A stretch of 64,000 nucleotides of DNA, taken from the NCBI GenBank assembly GCA_002238725.1, contig MPMX01000011.1, positions 1-64,000 of the forward strand, given 5' to 3'. Positions 30,341-39,787 of the stretch are shown here, one piece after another. The notes below the pieces were generated by a model, which was not told where the DNA came from, made no database searches, and worked only from the letters and a program-made list of their open reading frames with translations. Every line of letters begins with the position of its first letter. Position 1 is the first letter of the stretch. The stretch comes from Rhodospirillaceae bacterium bin65. Lineage in GTDB: Bacteria; Pseudomonadota; Alphaproteobacteria; Bin65. The position numbers and the translations under genes were made by a program.

Positions 30341-31438
30341 ATGAAAGTGAATCCAGACAAAAATAGCGGCGTAGCCTCGCTTTCTCCATTTCCGGAAGGC
30401 TGGTATTTTATCGCCAGCCGCAAAGCGATAGAGAAAGAAGGGTTGGCCCGGAAAACCTGGCTCGGCGAACGGATCGTCGTCTGGTCCGACGGCGACGGGA
30501 AAGTCTGCGTCGCCGAAGCGGTCTGCCCTCATCTCGGCTCCGATCTGGCGCCCGAGGCCGGCGGCCGGGTGCGCAACGGTTGCCTGGTCTGCCCCTTTCA
30601 TGGATTCGAATACGACATTACCGGCCAATGCGTCGCGACGCCCTATGCGCCTGCGCCCAGGTCGGCCAGGCTCAATGTATTCGAGACACGCGAAGTCGAG
30701 GGCCTGGTCTTCGCCTGGCGGGGCAGCGGCGGACGGCCGCCGCAGTGGGACATTCCCGCGCCGCCAAGCGGAACCGACTGGAGTGAAATGGAATTCTGGA
30801 GCGTCCGGTTCCCGGGACATCCCCAGGAAACGACCGAAAACTCCGTGGATCTCGGACATTTGCGTTATGTGCACGGCTACGACAGCGTGAAAGGGGTCGG
30901 TTCGATATCGGTCGACGGGGCCTGGCTCAAGAGTTGTTTCGATTTCAGGCGAACCCAGACTGTCGCCGGGATCAAGATCTTCACCTACGATGTTTCCGCC
31001 GTCACCCATGTACACGGACTCGGCTATTCCTTCGTCGAGGTGCGAGAACATGCCATCGGCATGGATACCCGTTTGTGGGTGCTTGCGACGCCGATCGATG
31101 GCGAACTCGTCGAAATGACTCTCGTCAGCCAGGTGCGGCAGTTGCGCCGGCCGAAGCGGCCGATCATCGGGATGCGGTTTCTTCCGCCGCGCCTGCGCAC
31201 CCGGATAATGAACAAGATCATCATGGCGGCCCAGAAGCACGACGTGTTGCAGGACGTCGTGATCTGGGGCCGGAAACAATACCGGCCCCGCCCGATGCTA
31301 TGCCGTTCGGATGGCGAGATCGGCAAATACCGGCGTTATTGCGAGCAATTCTATCCGGACGGCCAGCTTTGCGACGCCCGAGCGGCGGACCGGCTTTCCG
31401 CCGGCACAGAACGTCAGCCGGACCCTCGCACCCGCTGA
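30341..31438 (+). CDS. Rieske-type non-heme iron oxygenase (sterol/steroid-oxygenase-like)
   Basis: A 365-residue Rieske oxygenase alpha subunit. The [2Fe-2S] ligands are C62-x-H64 and C84-xx-H87, and the mononuclear iron site reads N167-xx-D170-xx-H173-xxxx-H178, the pattern of this class. The single-subunit layout and N-terminal PFPEGWYFIA start resemble the KshA / Neverland-DAF-36 / SdmA branch, which acts on sterols and steroids (ring hydroxylation, 7-desaturation, C-4 demethylation). A reductase partner is not in the window. It is followed by the GPP34-P450 gene in the same direction and faces a sterol-methyltransferase-like gene, which supports a sterol-like substrate. The exact position oxidised cannot be inferred. 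Confidence 0.82.
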   Translation: MKVNPDKNSGVASLSPFPEGWYFIASRKAIEKEGLARKTWLGERIVVWSDGDGKVCVAEAVCPHLGSDLAPEAGGRVRNGCLVCPFHGFEYDITGQCVATPYAPAPRSARLNVFETREVEGLVFAWRGSGGRPPQWDIPAPPSGTDWSEMEFWSVRFPGHPQETTENSVDLGHLRYVHGYDSVKGVGSISVDGAWLKSCFDFRRTQTVAGIKIFTYDVSAVTHVHGLGYSFVEVREHAIGMDTRLWVLATPIDGELVEMTLVSQVRQLRRPKRPIIGMRFLPPRLRTRIMNKIIMAAQKHDVLQDVVIWGRKQYRPRPMLCRSDGEIGKYRRYCEQFYPDGQLCDARAADRLSAGTERQPDPRTR

Positions 31439-31690: not shown

Positions 31691-31719
31691 CCGCTCCGGA
31701 CCGAAGGAGGCCATGGCCG

Positions 31720-33747
31720 ATGCCCGATTCTGTCGAGGGATTGACGACGCAATCGCTGAGCCTGCCGGAAGAGCTCATCCTGATGCTCCTCAATGAGGAG
31801 ACCGGCTACTTTCACCAGGTCCATGGCTGGGAATTGAACTGCGCCGTCATCGGTTCGGTGCTCGCGGAACTCTCCCTCCTGTCGCGCATCGACACCGACA
31901 TCGAAGCGCTGCTCCTCGTCGACCCGACGGAGACGGGCAATCCGGTTCTGGATCCCGTACTGAAGGAAATCGCAGACGAGCCGGTTCAGCACAACGCCCA
32001 GTACTGGATCGAACGGCTCGCCGTTCATGCAGAGTCGATCATCGATATGACGCTCGACCGTCTGGTCGAACTGAAGATTCTCCATCACCACGACGGCGAT
32101 TTCTGGACGCTCGCGCCCACGAACTGGCATACGGACGTGCTCGGCAACTCCAGGGAAGGGACTGCCGGCCAGTTCATCAAGACGCGTATCAGCGAGTGTA
32201 TCTTTACCGACACGATCCCCGATCCGAGGGACGTCATCGTCGTTTGCCTCGTCAATACCTGCGACGTGTTTCGCTTCATATTCGAACTCGACGACGAAGC
32301 CGAAGGGCGCATCGAACTGATCTGCAAGATGGACCTGATCGGCCGTTCCATCGCCGATGCAGTCGAACACACCATCGCCAGCCCGCTGCTTCGGCGTTCG
32401 GCGCTGAACAAGCAAATTCCGCGGGTTTCGCTGCGTCGATTGCTGTTCAATCGTCATGTGCGGCACGGCAACATTCCCGCCATCTTTGCGGACCTCACAA
32501 AAGAATACGGCCCGGTGTTCGAGATCCGTCCGCCGTTTGCGAAACCCATGATCTTTCTCGGCGGGCCGGAGACAAACCGCTGGGTACATCGGCACGGGCG
32601 GATGTATCTGAGGGCCAAGGACTATTTTGCCGACTTCGAGAAAGTCTACGGGGCGTCCGGCGTCATGCCTTCGCTGGACGGCGCCGATCATTTTCGCCTT
32701 CGCAAGGCCATGGGACCGGCGTATTCGCGCGGGCGGCTGTGCGGGCAGTTGGACCAGGTTTATGACTATGCCCGCAAATTCATGGCGGATTGGAAGGTCG
32801 GCGAATCCTACCCCGCGACGAGCCTGTGCCGGCGAATGGTCAACGCGCAACTCTCGCCTCTCTTCATCGGCGTCGATTCTCAGGATCTCATTGACGATCT
32901 GATGACGTTCAAGGAGCGTGCACTCACCACCCACATCGTGAGGGCCCTGCCCAAATTCATGCTGTCTACCCCGGGCATGAAACGCCGGGCCAAAGCCGTC
33001 GACACGTTGATGGAACGGATCCAAAGCGTCCATACCCCTGCCCAGCGGGCCGGTTGCCCGCGGAACCTTGCAGACGACTGGCTGAGCCTGCACGCGAGCG
33101 ACCCGCAGCTGATGCCGGAATCGAACCTGCGTTTCGCCCTGTCCGCCGCGCTGGTAGCCAGCGTCTATCTCGGCGATGCGTTCAGCTTTGCGGTTTACGC
33201 CATGGCGTCGCAGCCCGAGCATTACGAAAAGATCCGGAGCGAAGCCGATGCCCTGTTCGAGGACGGCGATCCGGACAGCGAAGATTTCACCCCGTCGGCG
33301 ATCGAGTACACGCACCGATTCCTCATGGAATGCCTGCGCATGTACCCGATCGTACCGATGTCCATGCGGGATATCATGAACTCCTGTGTGGTCGAGGGAT
33401 ATGAACTGCCGGTCGGGTCGCGGGTCTATATCGCCCAGACGGCTTCGCACTATATGGAAGATGTCTTCCCGGATCCCTTCTCATTCGATATCGACCGTTA
33501 CCTGCCGGAGCGCAGCGAGCACCGCGATCCCGGCTATGCGCCCTATGGGCTGGGCACGCATACCTGCCTTGGCAACCGGTGGATGGATCTGCAACTGGCC
33601 GTCAACCTGCTGATGATCGCGCACCACTTCACCTTCGAGGTGTCCCCCGCCGACTATGCGCTCCGGTTCAGTCCGCTTCCGTCGATGAAACCGAGCAAAC
33701 GGCTGAAGTTCCGTATTGCGGAACAGAGGCGCGGACTGCCCGTCTGA
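31720..33747 (+). CDS. GOLPH3/GPP34 domain - cytochrome P450 fusion protein
   Basis: One uninterrupted 675-residue frame holds two domains. Residues about 12-222 form a GPP34 (Golgi phosphoprotein 3-like) domain: SLPEELILMLLNEETGY at the start, the VDPTETGNPVLD strand, LDRLVELKIL, and a final helix MDLIGRSIADAVEH. Residues about 232-668 are a cytochrome P450 with ExxR (E537-R540) and heme Cys616 in YGLGTHTCLG. The I-helix has SVYLG where (A/G)Gx(D/E)T is usual, so the acid-alcohol pair for O2 activation is missing. There is no signal peptide, and the GPP34 part may bring the P450 to membrane lipids, as GOLPH3 binds PI4P in eukaryotes (inference). An AGGAGG site supports the ATG. It ends 29 bp from the convergent sterol-methyltransferase-like gene. 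Confidence 0.82.
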   Translation: MPDSVEGLTTQSLSLPEELILMLLNEETGYFHQVHGWELNCAVIGSVLAELSLLSRIDTDIEALLLVDPTETGNPVLDPVLKEIADEPVQHNAQYWIERLAVHAESIIDMTLDRLVELKILHHHDGDFWTLAPTNWHTDVLGNSREGTAGQFIKTRISECIFTDTIPDPRDVIVVCLVNTCDVFRFIFELDDEAEGRIELICKMDLIGRSIADAVEHTIASPLLRRSALNKQIPRVSLRRLLFNRHVRHGNIPAIFADLTKEYGPVFEIRPPFAKPMIFLGGPETNRWVHRHGRMYLRAKDYFADFEKVYGASGVMPSLDGADHFRLRKAMGPAYSRGRLCGQLDQVYDYARKFMADWKVGESYPATSLCRRMVNAQLSPLFIGVDSQDLIDDLMTFKERALTTHIVRALPKFMLSTPGMKRRAKAVDTLMERIQSVHTPAQRAGCPRNLADDWLSLHASDPQLMPESNLRFALSAALVASVYLGDAFSFAVYAMASQPEHYEKIRSEADALFEDGDPDSEDFTPSAIEYTHRFLMECLRMYPIVPMSMRDIMNSCVVEGYELPVGSRVYIAQTASHYMEDVFPDPFSFDIDRYLPERSEHRDPGYAPYGLGTHTCLGNRWMDLQLAVNLLMIAHHFTFEVSPADYALRFSPLPSMKPSKRLKFRIAEQRRGLPV

Positions 33748-33776: not shown

Positions 33777-34814
33777 TTAAAGGGGTTTGCGCGCCAGAAA
33801 ACAATACAGCGGGGTGAAAATCCCGGTCCTGCCGCTGGCGATATAGGCGTCGGCGGTTCGATCCAGCAGCCGGACGACCTCTGTTGAACCCTTCGGGAAA
33901 ACCCCCGCCTTCTCGGCCAGCATGGACGCCGCGAGGAACGCCTTGCGGCCCAGCGGAGTCCGGCGCAAAGCGTTGCCGACCGTTCCGCGCCGGGTCTCCA
34001 TGGGCCGATACCACGGCGTGATCGGGCCGTTCTCCCCGACGGCCAGGTCCATCCCCTCGATGACCTTGAACCCAGCGGTTTCGAGGGCCCGGTCAACCTC
34101 ATCCGTCGTCGCGATCTCCTTGAGCGCGATGCCGCGCATCAGTTCCCGCTTGACGGCCCGGTGCCGGCTGTCGTCGGGATCGAACCTGCCCGTCATGCAC
34201 ATTTCCTGACCCCAGAAAAGGGCCCCGGGTTTCAGCACGCGGTAAATCTCGGCGAACGCGCCCACCTTGTCCGGCGCATGGCACGTCGATTCGATCGCAT
34301 AGCCCCGGTCGAAGGCGGCGTCCTCGATGGCGTTCATGTCCATAAAGCTGCACGCGATGTAATCGACGATGCCGCCGGTCCCTGCCTCAAGGTCGAACGA
34401 TTTCGCCTTTTCCAGTTGGAATTCACTGCTGTTGACCCCAGTCACCCTGACACCGGCCTCACGGGCGACGCGGCGCATCGGGCCGCCGACCCCGCAACCG
34501 ATATCGACGACCGTCATGCCCTCCTGCAGCTCCAGCTTGGCAATCATCAGCTGCTGATGCCGGATCTTGGCGTCCTCCAGGTTTTCCCGGGGCGACAGCG
34601 GCGCGAAATGAAGGGATTCGCCCCAGCCGAAGATCATGAACTCGCTGCAGAGGTCGTAATATTCCTTGACGGTTTCGGTGTGGTCGTAGCCCGCCGCGCC
34701 GGAATCTTCCGCGAAGGCCCGGTCGGTCCATCCGTCGAAACGCTGCACGCGGCGGACCACGTTCGACCCGCGGTACGCGGCCTTCAGCCCGTCGGATAAT
34801 CTGCGGAGTTGCAT
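33777..34814 (-). CDS. Sterol C-24 methyltransferase-like protein (ERG6/SMT family)
   Basis: A 345-residue SAM-dependent methyltransferase strikingly like eukaryotic sterol 24-C-methyltransferase. It carries the four SMT regions: FGWGESLHF (62-70), SAM-binding DIGCGVGGP (104-112), YAIESTCHAP (172-181) and TPWYRP (266-271). It also has a C-terminal SMT domain ending GIFTPLYCFLARKP, as in yeast Erg6. These signature segments set it apart from tocopherol or mycolic-acid methyltransferases. The predicted reaction is methyl transfer to a side-chain double bond of a sterol or a similar isoprenoid. It is 54 bp downstream of the MMPL exporter gene in the same direction, so product and export are probably co-expressed. 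Bacterial SMTs are rare and have been described mainly from uncultured, sponge-associated lineages. Confidence 0.88.
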   Translation of the reverse strand: MQLRRLSDGLKAAYRGSNVVRRVQRFDGWTDRAFAEDSGAAGYDHTETVKEYYDLCSEFMIFGWGESLHFAPLSPRENLEDAKIRHQQLMIAKLELQEGMTVVDIGCGVGGPMRRVAREAGVRVTGVNSSEFQLEKAKSFDLEAGTGGIVDYIACSFMDMNAIEDAAFDRGYAIESTCHAPDKVGAFAEIYRVLKPGALFWGQEMCMTGRFDPDDSRHRAVKRELMRGIALKEIATTDEVDRALETAGFKVIEGMDLAVGENGPITPWYRPMETRRGTVGNALRRTPLGRKAFLAASMLAEKAGVFPKGSTEVVRLLDRTADAYIASGRTGIFTPLYCFLARKPL

Positions 34815-34868: not shown

Positions 34869-37196
34869 TCACCGGATCGGCTGCCTGAGCCGTTCCCTGA
34901 TCTGCGCGGTCGTTTCCCTGGTCCCGTCGAGGGCCATGAGCAGCGGCGGGAGGAAAAGGAAATCCGCCAGTAATGCGATGACGACCGTCATTCCCACGAG
35001 CATGCCGAGCGCCTGATTGGTGGTCATCCCCGACGCGCCGAACACCAGGAATCCCAATCCGAACACGATGGTCGTCGTCACCAACGCCTTGCCGACCGAG
35101 CGAAAGGCGGATTGTACGGACTCCGACGGCAGCAGGCCGCGCTTCCTGGCTCCGACATACTTTGTCATGAAATGGATCGTGTCGTCCACGATGATGCCGA
35201 ACGCGATCGCGGTGACGACTGCCGCGGCGTTCCCGACCGCTCCGACCGCATACCCCCACAAGCCCATCGCCATGGCGGCCGGAACGAAATTGGGTATCAG
35301 GCTGATCAGGCCGAGCCGCACACTCCTGAAAACGAAAAGCAGGAGCAGGGAGACGATCGCCATCGCCACGATGGTGCCGCGCAACATGCCTTCTATATTC
35401 CGCTGGATCGAATTGGCGCCGACGACCGAGACGCCGGTGGCGCCGGTTTCCAGGCCGGGGGCGTTATCCCGGAACCAGGCGCGCGCGCGTTCGTCGAGCG
35501 CGATCTTCTCGTTGGTGGACAGGCTCTTGAGCGTGACCGTTACCCGCGTCGCCGCGCGTCCGACGTCGATGAGATTGTTCAGGTCGCGGCCTTCCGGCAA
35601 AGAAAACTCGTAGAGCAGCAGATACTGCGCAGCGAGATCGGAATTGTCCGGAATAGCGTAAAATTCCTGTTTGTCGCCGTGCAGGTTCTTGTTCAGCCGC
35701 TTCATGATGTCGGAAATGGCAAAGACGTGGGCAACTTCAGGCTGCGCCCGGTACCATTGCGCAAACGCCTCGACGCGGCGCAGGTATTCGACATCGGTCA
35801 CGCCGCCCTCGCGCCCGGAATTGAGCGAGTATTCGTAGGTTTCCACGCCTGCGAACTTCTCGCTCACGAAATCCGTCGATTGCCGGAACTCATAGCTTTC
35901 GTCGAGCAGTTCGAGCCAGTTTTCCTTGAGCTCGATCCGCGAGATTCCGGCGATGAGCACAACCGTCACGACACCGAAAGACCATAGAAGCGTTGTGCGG
36001 TGGGAAACGACAAACCGCCCGAGGCGATCGAAGAAATCCAAGTGTCCGTCGCGCACGGGCCGGGCGCGCAGGGGAACAAACGACAGAAATACCGGCAGAA
36101 GCGTTACCGAATACACGAAGGCGCACATGGCGCCGAACGCCACCATGTTCCCCATGACCCGAAACGGCGGCATTTCCGCAAAATTCAGGCTGAGGAAACC
36201 GATCGCGGTTGTCAGCGACGTCAGGAAAACGGGCCACGCATTGACTTGCAGGGAGTGGGTCGCCGCCTGTTTGCGATCCATGCCCTGGCGCAACCCCGCC
36301 ATCATGGCCTCGATGATATGGACGGTGTGCGCGACGGTGACCGCCATCAGGACGAACAATGCCGCGCCGCTCTCTCCGTACAGCTTCATCCCGGCCCAGC
36401 CGATGAAGCCCAGCGCGGACAGGAAAACGGCGACCAGCATCACGACGATCGCAACGGTTCCCCACATCGAGCGGAGCAGGACTATGGCGACGAGCAGCAT
36501 CGTGACAAGCGCGAGCGGCGCGAGAACGCCCATGTCGTCGTTGATCGCGTCGCGCATGGCGCGATTGAGGACGATTTCACCTGTCAGGTGGTAATCGATG
36601 TTCGAATGTTTCGTCCGGGCCGCGGCAAGCGTTTCATTGAGAAAGTCGACGATCTCTACTCTCGCCGGCTGTCGATTTTCGGGAAGCGCAACGCTGACGA
36701 CCAGCCCGGCGACCTGACCGTCCCGGGAAACAAGGCGCCCGGCAACTTCCTCGGATTCGAGCGCAATTTTTCCAATTCGTTGTATGTCGCTGTCGCCAAG
36801 GGAACCGGCGTTGTCGATCAAGCGTTCGACAATAAGTTCGTCTTCGCGGCCCTCGCTGTGCGAATAGTTTGCAATTGAATCGACGCGGGTGACGTAGGGC
36901 GTATGCCAGAGTCGCTCGGTCAGATCTTCTATGGCAACAAGCGCTTCCCTTGTGAAAACGGTGCCGTTGCGCGGCGCTACGGTAACGAGCGCCGCATCCG
37001 AGAGGGCGTAGGTGTCTTCAAGCTGTTCGAGCGCAACAATGTGCGGGTCTTGTTTGCTGAAATGATTTCGAACGTCGACGTCAACATTTACGATGAACAT
37101 TGCGCCGGTGGCGAGAGCGATCATCACGATCAACGAAAGTAAAATGGTCAGCCATCGCCGACCCATTACGAGCGCTATGGAGGATTCCAAATTCAT
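34869..37196 (-). CDS. MMPL/RND-family lipid exporter
   Basis: A 775-residue RND/MMPL permease. It has an N-terminal helix, a periplasmic domain (about 35-225), a first helix bundle (about 225-370), a second helix and periplasmic domain (about 400-610), and a final bundle ending in LFLPPLLMAL. The bundle contains the GIIVDDTIHFMTKY charge-relay motif typical of MMPL/HpnN-type hydrophobic-lipid transporters. Such proteins move hopanoids (HpnN) or sterols (BstA) between membranes. No membrane-fusion protein or TolC is nearby; the divergent LolA-like and beta-barrel genes could supply the periplasmic and outer-membrane steps. It is upstream of the SMT-like gene on the same transcript. Confidence 0.88.
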   Translation of the reverse strand: MNLESSIALVMGRRWLTILLSLIVMIALATGAMFIVNVDVDVRNHFSKQDPHIVALEQLEDTYALSDAALVTVAPRNGTVFTREALVAIEDLTERLWHTPYVTRVDSIANYSHSEGREDELIVERLIDNAGSLGDSDIQRIGKIALESEEVAGRLVSRDGQVAGLVVSVALPENRQPARVEIVDFLNETLAAARTKHSNIDYHLTGEIVLNRAMRDAINDDMGVLAPLALVTMLLVAIVLLRSMWGTVAIVVMLVAVFLSALGFIGWAGMKLYGESGAALFVLMAVTVAHTVHIIEAMMAGLRQGMDRKQAATHSLQVNAWPVFLTSLTTAIGFLSLNFAEMPPFRVMGNMVAFGAMCAFVYSVTLLPVFLSFVPLRARPVRDGHLDFFDRLGRFVVSHRTTLLWSFGVVTVVLIAGISRIELKENWLELLDESYEFRQSTDFVSEKFAGVETYEYSLNSGREGGVTDVEYLRRVEAFAQWYRAQPEVAHVFAISDIMKRLNKNLHGDKQEFYAIPDNSDLAAQYLLLYEFSLPEGRDLNNLIDVGRAATRVTVTLKSLSTNEKIALDERARAWFRDNAPGLETGATGVSVVGANSIQRNIEGMLRGTIVAMAIVSLLLLFVFRSVRLGLISLIPNFVPAAMAMGLWGYAVGAVGNAAAVVTAIAFGIIVDDTIHFMTKYVGARKRGLLPSESVQSAFRSVGKALVTTTIVFGLGFLVFGASGMTTNQALGMLVGMTVVIALLADFLFLPPLLMALDGTRETTAQIRERLRQPIR

Positions 37197-37688
37197 ATCA
37201 TCTTGCCGGCTTTGGCCCGGAATTCGAAATCAGCACATTCTGTTCGCGTTCCCGAGTCCCTTACTTGGCGACCATAACAGAGCACAGCATTAGGAAAGGA
37301 ATTTCGCAGGAGGCGGCAGTACATAGTCAAGTGAACTCCAACGACAGGAGCATCCCTTTGCAGTATTCCAGCCTCCAACCTCTCCTGTCCATCATTCTTT
37401 CGGGTCTGCCCGCCCGATCGGCGGCGGTCGGGCAGCGCGATCGGGAACCGGTTGAAGCCACTTGCACATGCGGCAGCGCGGCAATAGGGTTCCACCTGCA
37501 TACTGAATTTCTCTGGACCGACTCGTCTTTCCGGAAGTATCCCGGACTCCGGCCGATCGGGCGGCGGTATTCTGGTTGCCGGGCGCGGCATTGCAGCCGA
37601 CCGTCGCGTTGCCGGCAGCGGTTCGGTGCCGGGGCGCCGGTTTCCAGCTTCATCCGCTGCTGTTGATGGCTATCGATCGGAAAAACAC
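37197..37688. other. Intergenic region between divergent exporter and LolA-like genes
   Basis: About 490 bp without a supported gene. It must hold the promoters of both divergent units; short frames on either strand lack family features. No clear promoter or operator was identified by eye. Confidence 0.5.
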
Positions 37689-38501
37689 ATGATCCGCCTC
37701 CATCCGACCCTATCGAAACTTCCGGCTGTTCTGCTGCTGACTTCGGTGCCGCTCACCGGAGTTCAGCCCGCGGGCGCCGCCTCGCCCGGGGAGGCCGGCC
37801 TCAAGATCGCCAAGGACGCCTACGACCGCGACAAGGGCTTCGGCAATTTCACCGCCAGCCAGACCATGGTGCTGCGCAACAAGCAGGGGCGGGAGAGCCG
37901 GCGCCAGCTCCGGATCAAGGTTCTCGAGACCGAGGATGCCGGCAACCGGAGCCTGTTCGTGTTCGACCGGCCGCGCAGCGTCAAGGGCACCGCCTTCCTG
38001 ATCCACGCCCACAAGAAGAAGGCCGACGACCAGTGGCTCTATCTGCCGGCGCTCAAAAGGGTGAAACGCATCAGTTCGTCGAACCGCTCGGGCTCGTTCA
38101 TGGGCTCCGAGTTCTCCTACGAGGATCTGGGCGCCCAGGAAGTCGGGAAATACACCTACAAGTATCTGCGCGACGAGGCGTGCGGCAAGCTCGCGTGCAC
38201 GGTGGTCGAGCAGGTGCCGACGGCGAAGCGCTCGGCCTACCGGCGCCAGATCGTGTGGCGCGACAAGACGGAATTGCGCGCCTGGAAGATCGCCTTCTAC
38301 GACCGCAAGAACGCGCATCTGAAGACGCTGACCTTCGCGAAATACAAGCAGTATCTGAAACGCTTCTGGCGCGCCGGCGAGATGACGATGGTCAACCACC
38401 TGACCGGCAAGAGCACCGTCATGCTGTGGTCGGACTACAGGTTCGGCGCCGACCTCAAGGCGCGCGAGTTCACCCGGACCGGCCTCAAACGGGTGCGCTG
38501 A
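37689..38501 (+). CDS. LolA-like periplasmic outer-membrane lipoprotein-sorting protein (PF17131 type)
   Basis: A 270-residue periplasmic protein with a signal peptide (about 1-30, cleavage near AGAAS). The fold is the LolA/LppX-like half barrel that binds lipids: features of the PF17131 group are QTMVLRNKQGRESRRQLR, the RPRSVKGTAFL strand, and the WLYLPALKRVKRISSSNRSGSFMGSEFSYED block. Proteins of this group are often encoded with MMPL exporters and an outer-membrane barrel. Start at 37689 is chosen because the signal peptide begins there; a frame extension to 37626 adds residues before the signal. Stop and next start overlap as TGATG. Confidence 0.86.
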   Translation: MIRLHPTLSKLPAVLLLTSVPLTGVQPAGAASPGEAGLKIAKDAYDRDKGFGNFTASQTMVLRNKQGRESRRQLRIKVLETEDAGNRSLFVFDRPRSVKGTAFLIHAHKKKADDQWLYLPALKRVKRISSSNRSGSFMGSEFSYEDLGAQEVGKYTYKYLRDEACGKLACTVVEQVPTAKRSAYRRQIVWRDKTELRAWKIAFYDRKNAHLKTLTFAKYKQYLKRFWRAGEMTMVNHLTGKSTVMLWSDYRFGADLKAREFTRTGLKRVR

Positions 38502-39787
38502 TGCCAATGCCCGCCGACCTTCGGCGGACCGGCCGGAGCGCAGTCCGGATTGCGCTTGCGCTCCTTGCCTTCGCCGCCGGAACGGCGACTGCCGTTGCCG
38601 AACACGAAATCTCCGGGCGTGTGGCGGTGGAGAGCCGCTGGTTTCCGCAAACCGCCGCCTTTGACGGCCAGCGCGGCTATAACGCCGGGCTGGTCGCCGA
38701 GCCCAAGCTCTATCTCCAGGTCGCGGAATCGACGAGCTTCACCCTGGTTCCGTTTTTCCGCTACGACGCCGCCGATCCGGCCCGCACTCATGCCGACCTG
38801 CGCGAAGCCTATCTGCTGGTGAACGGCCCGATGGGCGAGGGCGAATGGGAACTGCGCCTCGGCATCGACCGGGTGTTCTGGGGCGTCGCCGAATTGCGCC
38901 ATCTGGTCGATATCGTCAACCAGACCGATCTGGTCGACCATCCGAACGAGAAGACCAAGCTGGGCCAGCCGATGGCCCATCTCACGCTGTCCGGTGACTG
39001 GGGCGCGGCGGAGTTCTTCCTGATTTCTTATCATCGGCAGCGCACCTTCCCGGGCCGCGCAGGCCGCTTGCGCCCAATGTTGCGAATCGACAACGACCTC
39101 GCGACCTACGAGAGCGGCGCCGGGGAATGGCATCTCGATTTCGCGGCCCGCTACAGTCACACCTTCGGGCCGCTCGATCTCGGCCTCAGCGTGTTCGACG
39201 GCACCAGCCGGGAACCGGTCATGCGGATCGAGCCGCTCAGTCTCACAAGTTTTGTACTGGCGCCGCACTACGAACAGATCCGGCAGTTCGGACTCGACGC
39301 CCAGCTCACCGTCGAGGCCTGGCTGTTGAAGCTGGAGGCGATCTATCGCCAGGGCGCCCGCAACACCGTCCGCAACCCCGCCGATCTTACCGACCTCGGC
39401 AAGAAGGAAGCCTATGCTTCCTTCGTCGTCGGCGGCGAATACACCTTCAACGGCATCTTCGAATCGGACGCCGACCTCAGCCTGCTCGCAGAATGGATGC
39501 TCGACGGGCGGCGCCAACGGGCGACCAACCAGTATCAGAACGACCTGTTCCTCGGCGCGCGCCTCGCACTCAACGACGTCCAGGGCGCGGAATTCATCGT
39601 CGGAGCGCTGCTCGATCTGGACTATCGCACCCGAACCCTGAACATCGAGTTCAACCGGCGGCTCACCGACGCCGTCTCGGTGAAGGCCGAGGCGGTCCTT
39701 CTGCTCCAGGTCGACAGGGCGGACACGATCGTCCACCAGACCAGGCGCGACAGCTTCGTGGCCGTGAACCTGACGTATAATTTTTAG
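38501..39787 (+). CDS. Outer-membrane beta-barrel protein
   Basis: A 428-residue outer-membrane protein. A signal peptide (about 1-34) is followed by many short amphipathic strands, and the C-terminus ends in a phenylalanine (NLTYNF), the BamA recognition signature. It does not match a porin family that can be named with certainty; DUF1302-like or alginate-export-like barrels are possible. The start overlaps the LolA-like stop by one base (TGATG), so the two are coupled. With the divergent MMPL exporter it would complete a cell-envelope route. Confidence 0.8.
   Translation: MPMPADLRRTGRSAVRIALALLAFAAGTATAVAEHEISGRVAVESRWFPQTAAFDGQRGYNAGLVAEPKLYLQVAESTSFTLVPFFRYDAADPARTHADLREAYLLVNGPMGEGEWELRLGIDRVFWGVAELRHLVDIVNQTDLVDHPNEKTKLGQPMAHLTLSGDWGAAEFFLISYHRQRTFPGRAGRLRPMLRIDNDLATYESGAGEWHLDFAARYSHTFGPLDLGLSVFDGTSREPVMRIEPLSLTSFVLAPHYEQIRQFGLDAQLTVEAWLLKLEAIYRQGARNTVRNPADLTDLGKKEAYASFVVGGEYTFNGIFESDADLSLLAEWMLDGRRQRATNQYQNDLFLGARLALNDVQGAEFIVGALLDLDYRTRTLNIEFNRRLTDAVSVKAEAVLLLQVDRADTIVHQTRRDSFVAVNLTYNF

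Follow-up and report, generated by a model that had tools for sequence, protein, structure and literature searches.

A GPP34–cytochrome P450 fusion gene from probable sponge symbionts and its possible role in sterol chemistry

We analysed a 64,000-nucleotide stretch of DNA from Rhodospirillaceae bacterium bin65 (assembly GCA_002238725.1, contig MPMX01000011.1, positions 1 to 64,000), here called the window, and describe a gene in it that joins a GPP34 (GOLPH3-like) domain to a cytochrome P450. Carriers of such genes are assigned to nine phyla. We give a probability of about 0.5 to the reading that the product is a natural one-frame enzyme acting on sterols at the inner membrane, where it would oxidise or rearrange them, the GOLPH3-like domain being its predicted dock. 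What is new here is a P450 fusion whose domain partner lacks description in the literature searched, with preprints and most subscription journals outside its scope. Within that scope no description of a GPP34–P450 fusion was found, in agreement with an earlier note, made from the sequence alone, that knew of no such enzyme. A search for 'GPP34 domain' together with bacteria found nothing, matches for GPP34 with cytochrome P450 concerned insects, and the PF05719 match concerned cnidarian symbiosis.

A single open frame encodes both domains

The gene runs from an ATG start without internal stops and encodes 675 amino acids (aa). Its features are as follows:

31704..31710 (+), ribosome-binding-type site AAGGAGG, read in the sequence
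31720..33747 (+), GPP34–P450 fusion gene, 675 aa, from open reading frame, Pfam and homologues
31762..32370 (+), GPP34 (GOLPH3-like) domain, aa 15–217, from Pfam
32080..32112 (+), predicted beta hairpin LHHHDGDFWTL, aa 121–131, from structure prediction and alignment
32371..32427 (+), linker, aa 218–236, from structure prediction and dN/dS
32458..33660 (+), cytochrome P450 domain, aa 247–647, from Pfam and fold
33157..33180 (+), atypical I-helix motif ASVYLGDA, aa 480–487, from alignment; no acid–alcohol pair
33328..33339 (+), ExxR motif with E537 and R540, invariant in an alignment of 245 rows
33544..33573 (+), haem-binding loop YGLGTHTCLG with C616, invariant in the 245 rows

At 95 bits the GPP34 match clears its cut-off of 29.1 (PF05719, E = 8.2e-27) and spans profile positions 1–200 of 201; the P450 match, at 133.1 bits against 22.8, is nearly complete (PF00067, E = 1.7e-38). 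The predicted fold of the first domain is that of GOLPH3, and structure comparison backs a P450 fold for the predicted structure of the second. Thus, the full GPP34 domain and P450 in one gapless frame claimed by the earlier note are both present. The note had also named two findings that would overturn its claim, a frameshift or stop at residues 215–235 and an N-terminal part without a GPP34 profile match; both were looked for and neither occurred. The junction (aa 218–236) reads open without a stop, and homologues 98% and 96% identical to the protein are likewise 675 aa long, so that an overlooked frameshift can be all but discounted. The strong AGGAGG that the note places before the start is there as AAGGAGG, 9 bases 5′ of the ATG; a second ATG at 31713 is out of frame with the fusion. 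Scanning for promoters and terminators around the gene gave no more sites than shuffled sequences did.

Comparison with four relatives gave ratios of nonsynonymous to synonymous substitution rates (dN/dS) of 0.10–0.23 for the GPP34 part and 0.13–0.28 for the P450 part. In three of the four comparisons, the linker of 19 codons is under weaker constraint than the domains, and its residues 218–228 are predicted with a confidence score (pLDDT) below 50.

The P450 keeps its haem motifs and has an altered I helix

The canonical (A/G)Gx(D/E)T motif was not found in the I helix, where ASVYLGD stands instead, and a one-residue alignment gap makes the helix one residue short compared with CYP51, CYP184A1 and sister fusions. 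Since the acid–alcohol pair is missing and the helix is short, oxygen activation is probably non-canonical; it may be peroxide-driven or substrate-assisted, or the reaction may be a rearrangement. P450s without the pair that retain the haem motifs include CYP74, CYP8A1, CYP5A1 and CYP152, and several of these families (CYP74, CYP8A1, CYP152) are active. The window's P450 resembles them in both respects, while they are other families with other substrates and, to our knowledge, none of them is fused to GPP34. A simple pattern for the I-helix motif matched two of the five other P450s of the genome that have a readable haem loop (six loci) and was not used as a control.

The nearest solved P450 by sequence (E = 4.7e-23), also first in Foldseek, is the CYP51–ferredoxin of Methylococcus capsulatus (6mi0, 7jj1, 6mcw). 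It is likewise a bacterial sterol P450 in a natural fusion, but the two are only about 21% identical, its partner is a ferredoxin and its I helix (AGHHTSS) is one residue longer. Membership in CYP51 is rejected at 21–22% identity to the nearest member, family-level identity being by convention 40% or more. The highest structural score belongs to CYP46A1, the cholesterol 24-hydroxylase (Z 36.4), at 16% identity; as P450 BM3 scores nearly as high, this likeness says little about the substrate.

A second GPP34–P450 subfamily (L123:993-2978(-), L124:669-2717(-), L126:1284-3290(+), L127:2587-4947(+)) keeps the canonical I-helix motif, and its P450 parts are 31–35% identical to the window's.

The GPP34 domain lacks the PI4P-binding residues of GOLPH3

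The eukaryotic GPP34 proteins GOLPH3 and Vps74 hold Golgi enzymes. The window's domain differs from them in being bacterial, in its fusion to a P450, in its low identity (about 20–22%) and in lacking the residues that bind phosphatidylinositol 4-phosphate (PI4P). In GOLPH3 we take these to be W81, R90, R171 and R174; no basic residue stands at the aligned columns in any of the 245 rows. By alignment count, R171 and R174 correspond to aa 105 and 108, and the GOLPH3 hairpin to aa 124–135. PI4P-dependent docking is thus unsupported, and so is the phosphoinositide binding that the earlier note mentions for GPP34 proteins. Within the predicted hairpin H124, G126, F128 and W/Y129 are nearly invariant, and GPP34 may hold the P450 at the membrane through this conserved aromatic hairpin instead. 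The flexible linker would then let the P450 face the bilayer. Recruitment of the enzyme to a lipid surface, as the earlier note suggests, is likewise inferred.

The domain is also joined to other modules. The same genome encodes a 314-aa fusion of GPP34 to a Rieske [2Fe-2S] domain (L070:4348-5292(-), contig C69; Pfam E = 6.7e-38 and 1e-17), with a gene for a PepSY-type membrane protein following it on that strand. GPP34 matches of at least 139 bits occur in 44 of 57 genomes (all drafts, and probably 56, as G001 and the genome of locus L004 look like one bin), and most of those that were read are stand-alone proteins. These observations support the view of GPP34 as a reusable module, and the fusions do not indicate its ligand. 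In two other genomes (L115:1018-2250(+), L120:1313-2563(-)) GPP34 is followed by a His-containing C-terminus of about 190 aa, hydrophobic as judged by eye, with no Pfam match.

GPP34 could alternatively be a protein adaptor that gathers the P450, stand-alone GPP34 proteins and partner enzymes into a complex, much as GOLPH3 and Vps74 do. The missing PI4P residues, the abundance of stand-alone copies and the fusions to other modules all fit such a role. No partner was identified, however, and the near-invariance of F128 and W/Y129 is what would be expected of membrane contact, though protein contact would look alike. We regard the adaptor as possible, but less probable than a membrane dock.

The fusion is a large family in bacteria assigned to several phyla

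A search of 5.8 billion proteins found 2205 homologues. All 120 of those listed have both domains; most are 670–680 aa long and 75–100% identical, and many lie on contigs above 1 Mb. Among the matches listed with each half, 20 entries are annotated with a single domain; in 19 of them a portion of the second domain is present, and the remaining one (P0135) starts at the linker. From their sequences they look like cut or frameshifted fusion copies (the check also took in three two-domain entries). Scanning 84,980 species genomes with a pattern yielded 59 fusion loci. Within the window's class the fusion is full length in six of 385 genomes and in pieces in one (G004). Among 61 relatives, the own genome included, five of the same genus have it full length and one in pieces, against none of 54 from other genera.

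In the genus-mate G004 (L094:7147-9182) the fusion is broken into a pair of neighbouring frames plus scattered pieces; this genome has an oxidosqualene cyclase (OSC) and ERG24. Paired GPP34–P450 genes, in tandem or close together, were seen at L042:9923-14349(+), L037:7744-11630(+), L056:10001-14145(+) and L049, with lower-end identities to the window copy of 29–61%.

In a quick tree of 60 sequences the phylum label changes 16 times, between a minimum of 8 and a shuffled mean of 34.5, so the labels cluster, though not cleanly. Among supported nodes, one (100) pairs a Chloroflexota bin with a bin of Rhodobacteraceae and another (99) groups one alphaproteobacterial bin with two from Nitrospirota; identity across phyla is 60–78%. 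Both the cross-phylum identity and the mixed tree fit transfer, and the family is probably shared horizontally; the labels are submitters' titles, and misbinning could imitate transfer. Horizontal transfer of steroid genes in sponge symbionts is reported in Kelly 2022 (PMC9531527).

The carriers probably live in marine sponges, judging from bin names. Titles of 16 of the 59 loci carry RHO, COS, CAR, IRC or APA, which we read as codes for sponge host species named in PMC8163846; a sponge origin is assumed for the other loci.

Sterol-related genes surround the fusion

The fusion lies in an island bounded on its left by GltX and citrate synthase, while LpxB, LpxI, an LpxA-type protein and Omp85 lie beyond its right edge. 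The other genes of the island are:

30341..31438 (+), Rieske oxygenase with a KshA C-terminal domain, 365 aa, from Pfam
33777..34814 (-), sterol C-24 methyltransferase (SMT) homologue, 345 aa, from Pfam; convergent with the fusion, 29 bases away
34869..37196 (-), MMPL/RND transporter, from Pfam; borderline sterol-sensing-domain match (23.2 bits, cut-off 22.3)
37626..38501 (+), LolA-like outer-membrane lipoprotein-sorting protein, from Pfam (204.9 bits); presumed island member
38033..39787 (+), DUF1302-like open frame, weak match (23.4 bits against 23.2), presumed island member; its annotated start overlaps the LolA-like frame

The nearest PDB sequence to the Rieske protein is KshA, 3-ketosteroid 9-alpha-hydroxylase (E = 9.2e-28). 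An identity as SdmA is rejected (NCBIfam NF052579, 32.7 bits against a cut-off of 600). The putative SMT matches Methyltransferase (59.2 bits) and Sterol_MT_C (56.3 bits), both above cut-off.

Across 60 loci, the window included, the neighbours are Rieske proteins (36), flavin adenine dinucleotide (FAD) oxidoreductases (30), SMT (26), AcrB-type RND (13), MMPL (11) and ERG24-like proteins (9). These counts (within about 10 kb, E 1e-15) are lower bounds, several loci ending inside that range. SMT occurs in 47 of the 57 genomes, mostly with one to three matches each. By an arithmetic estimate made without a shuffled control (neighbourhood at most about 1% of the genome), chance would place it near the fusion at about one locus in 60. 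A sterol setting, in line with the sterol that the earlier note names as a fitting substrate, is thus supported by SMT, the KshA-like Rieske and MMPL here, and by OSC, ERG24 and P450 genes at other loci.

In two genus-mates (L091:10729-12132(+), L092:3848-5596(+)) a FAD amine-oxidase-like gene adjoins the Rieske gene; none was seen between 21 and 44.5 kb in the window. For this gene in a relative, LkcE is the closest PDB match.

No sterol cyclase match was found in the window's genome (96.3% complete) by a search that was positive in controls, and no ERG24 match by one positive in 16 of 22 genomes of a selected set. OSC-type matches (about 170–205 bits, nearly all in frames of 1130–1610 aa, other cyclase matches being squalene–hopene-cyclase-like, partial or weak) occur in 18 of the 57 genomes, 17 of them fusion carriers. 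In eight genomes (G064, G066, G079, G086, G090, G105, G108, G109) an OSC-type match lies on the contig of the fusion, at most 16 kb from it; G104, with a 672-aa GPP34 frame near such a match, is a candidate ninth. In the window's genus, OSC and ERG24 occur together in G002, G004, G005 and G006, and G000, G001 and G003 have neither. The fusion occurs, then, also in bacteria that are probably unable to make sterols, and since such carriers lack a detected cyclase or ERG24, imported sterol is the simplest supply. The earlier note had not brought out the size and probable horizontal sharing of the family, the atypical I helix or the lack of a cyclase match in this genome.

At L051:13995-17600(-) squalene epoxidase and OSC form a single 1201-aa frame, with similar frames in G002, G004, G005, G006 and G066. 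In all six genomes with OSC-type frames tested, the epoxidase and cyclase matches lay on one contig, in frames of equal length.

The enzyme might instead serve sterol breakdown for carbon, with the KshA-like Rieske and the P450 starting the oxidation of ring and side chain in host sterols. The kinship of the Rieske to KshA and a genome that makes no sterol, as far as seen, fit this idea; the adjacent C-24 methyltransferase, recurrent near the fusion, and the OSC-type genes close to it in eight genomes point to building, and from searches not aimed at steroid-breakdown genes we consider breakdown unlikely.

In Kelly 2022 (PMC9531527), steroid gene clusters of Ircinia symbionts have a core of ERG24, CYP51 and LSS with SMT or FDFT1 at the flank. 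As here, sterol genes are common to several phyla of sponge symbionts. That cluster was not recovered in the window's genome, which gave no cyclase or ERG24 match; CYP51 was not tested as such. GPP34, GOLPH3 and Golgi do not appear in the main text, and its CYP51 alignment, at 1698 bases, could not accommodate a fusion of 675 aa. Brown 2023 (PMC10070321) describes SMT homologues of sponge symbionts, as at the fusion locus, some clustered with sdmA/sdmB and active in vitro; P450 and Rieske are absent from its main text, and the fusion is not described there.

Discussion

The missing acid–alcohol pair would fit a P450 domain that is no longer catalytic and acts as a sensor of haem or sterol. The invariance of C616, E537 and R540, the dN/dS of 0.13–0.28 in the P450 part and the activity of several pair-less families make this improbable. 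An artefact of assembly or gene calling can be dismissed: although all 59 pattern-scan loci are metagenome bins by title, it is contradicted by independent copies, namely the 120 listed two-domain homologues, many on very long contigs, and the six full-length genes in the class.

Under our preferred reading of a membrane-docked sterol enzyme, the sterol would be imported, probably from the sponge host, with the MMPL, LolA-like and DUF1302-like genes aiding its entry. The P450, the KshA-like Rieske oxygenase and the C-24 methyltransferase would form one pathway.

A bolder extension, which we hold to be doubtful, is that GPP34 serves bacteria in general as a module for docking redox enzymes to membranes, that the P450 is a new non-monooxygenase type rearranging sterol (endo)peroxides, and that symbionts unable to make sterols thereby account for part of the sponges' unusual sterol chemistry. 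Its first part draws on the fusion of GPP34 to both a P450 and a Rieske domain in one genome, and to the second P450 subfamily in others.

If our reading is true, a domain known mainly from the Golgi would gain a bacterial role, and a P450 architecture with an unusual oxygen-activation site would be added to those known. Both would also be tied to the question of which organisms produce the odd sponge sterols, some of them interpreted as molecular fossils left by early animals. On this reading, symbionts that have no sterol cyclase might nonetheless modify the sterols of their hosts.
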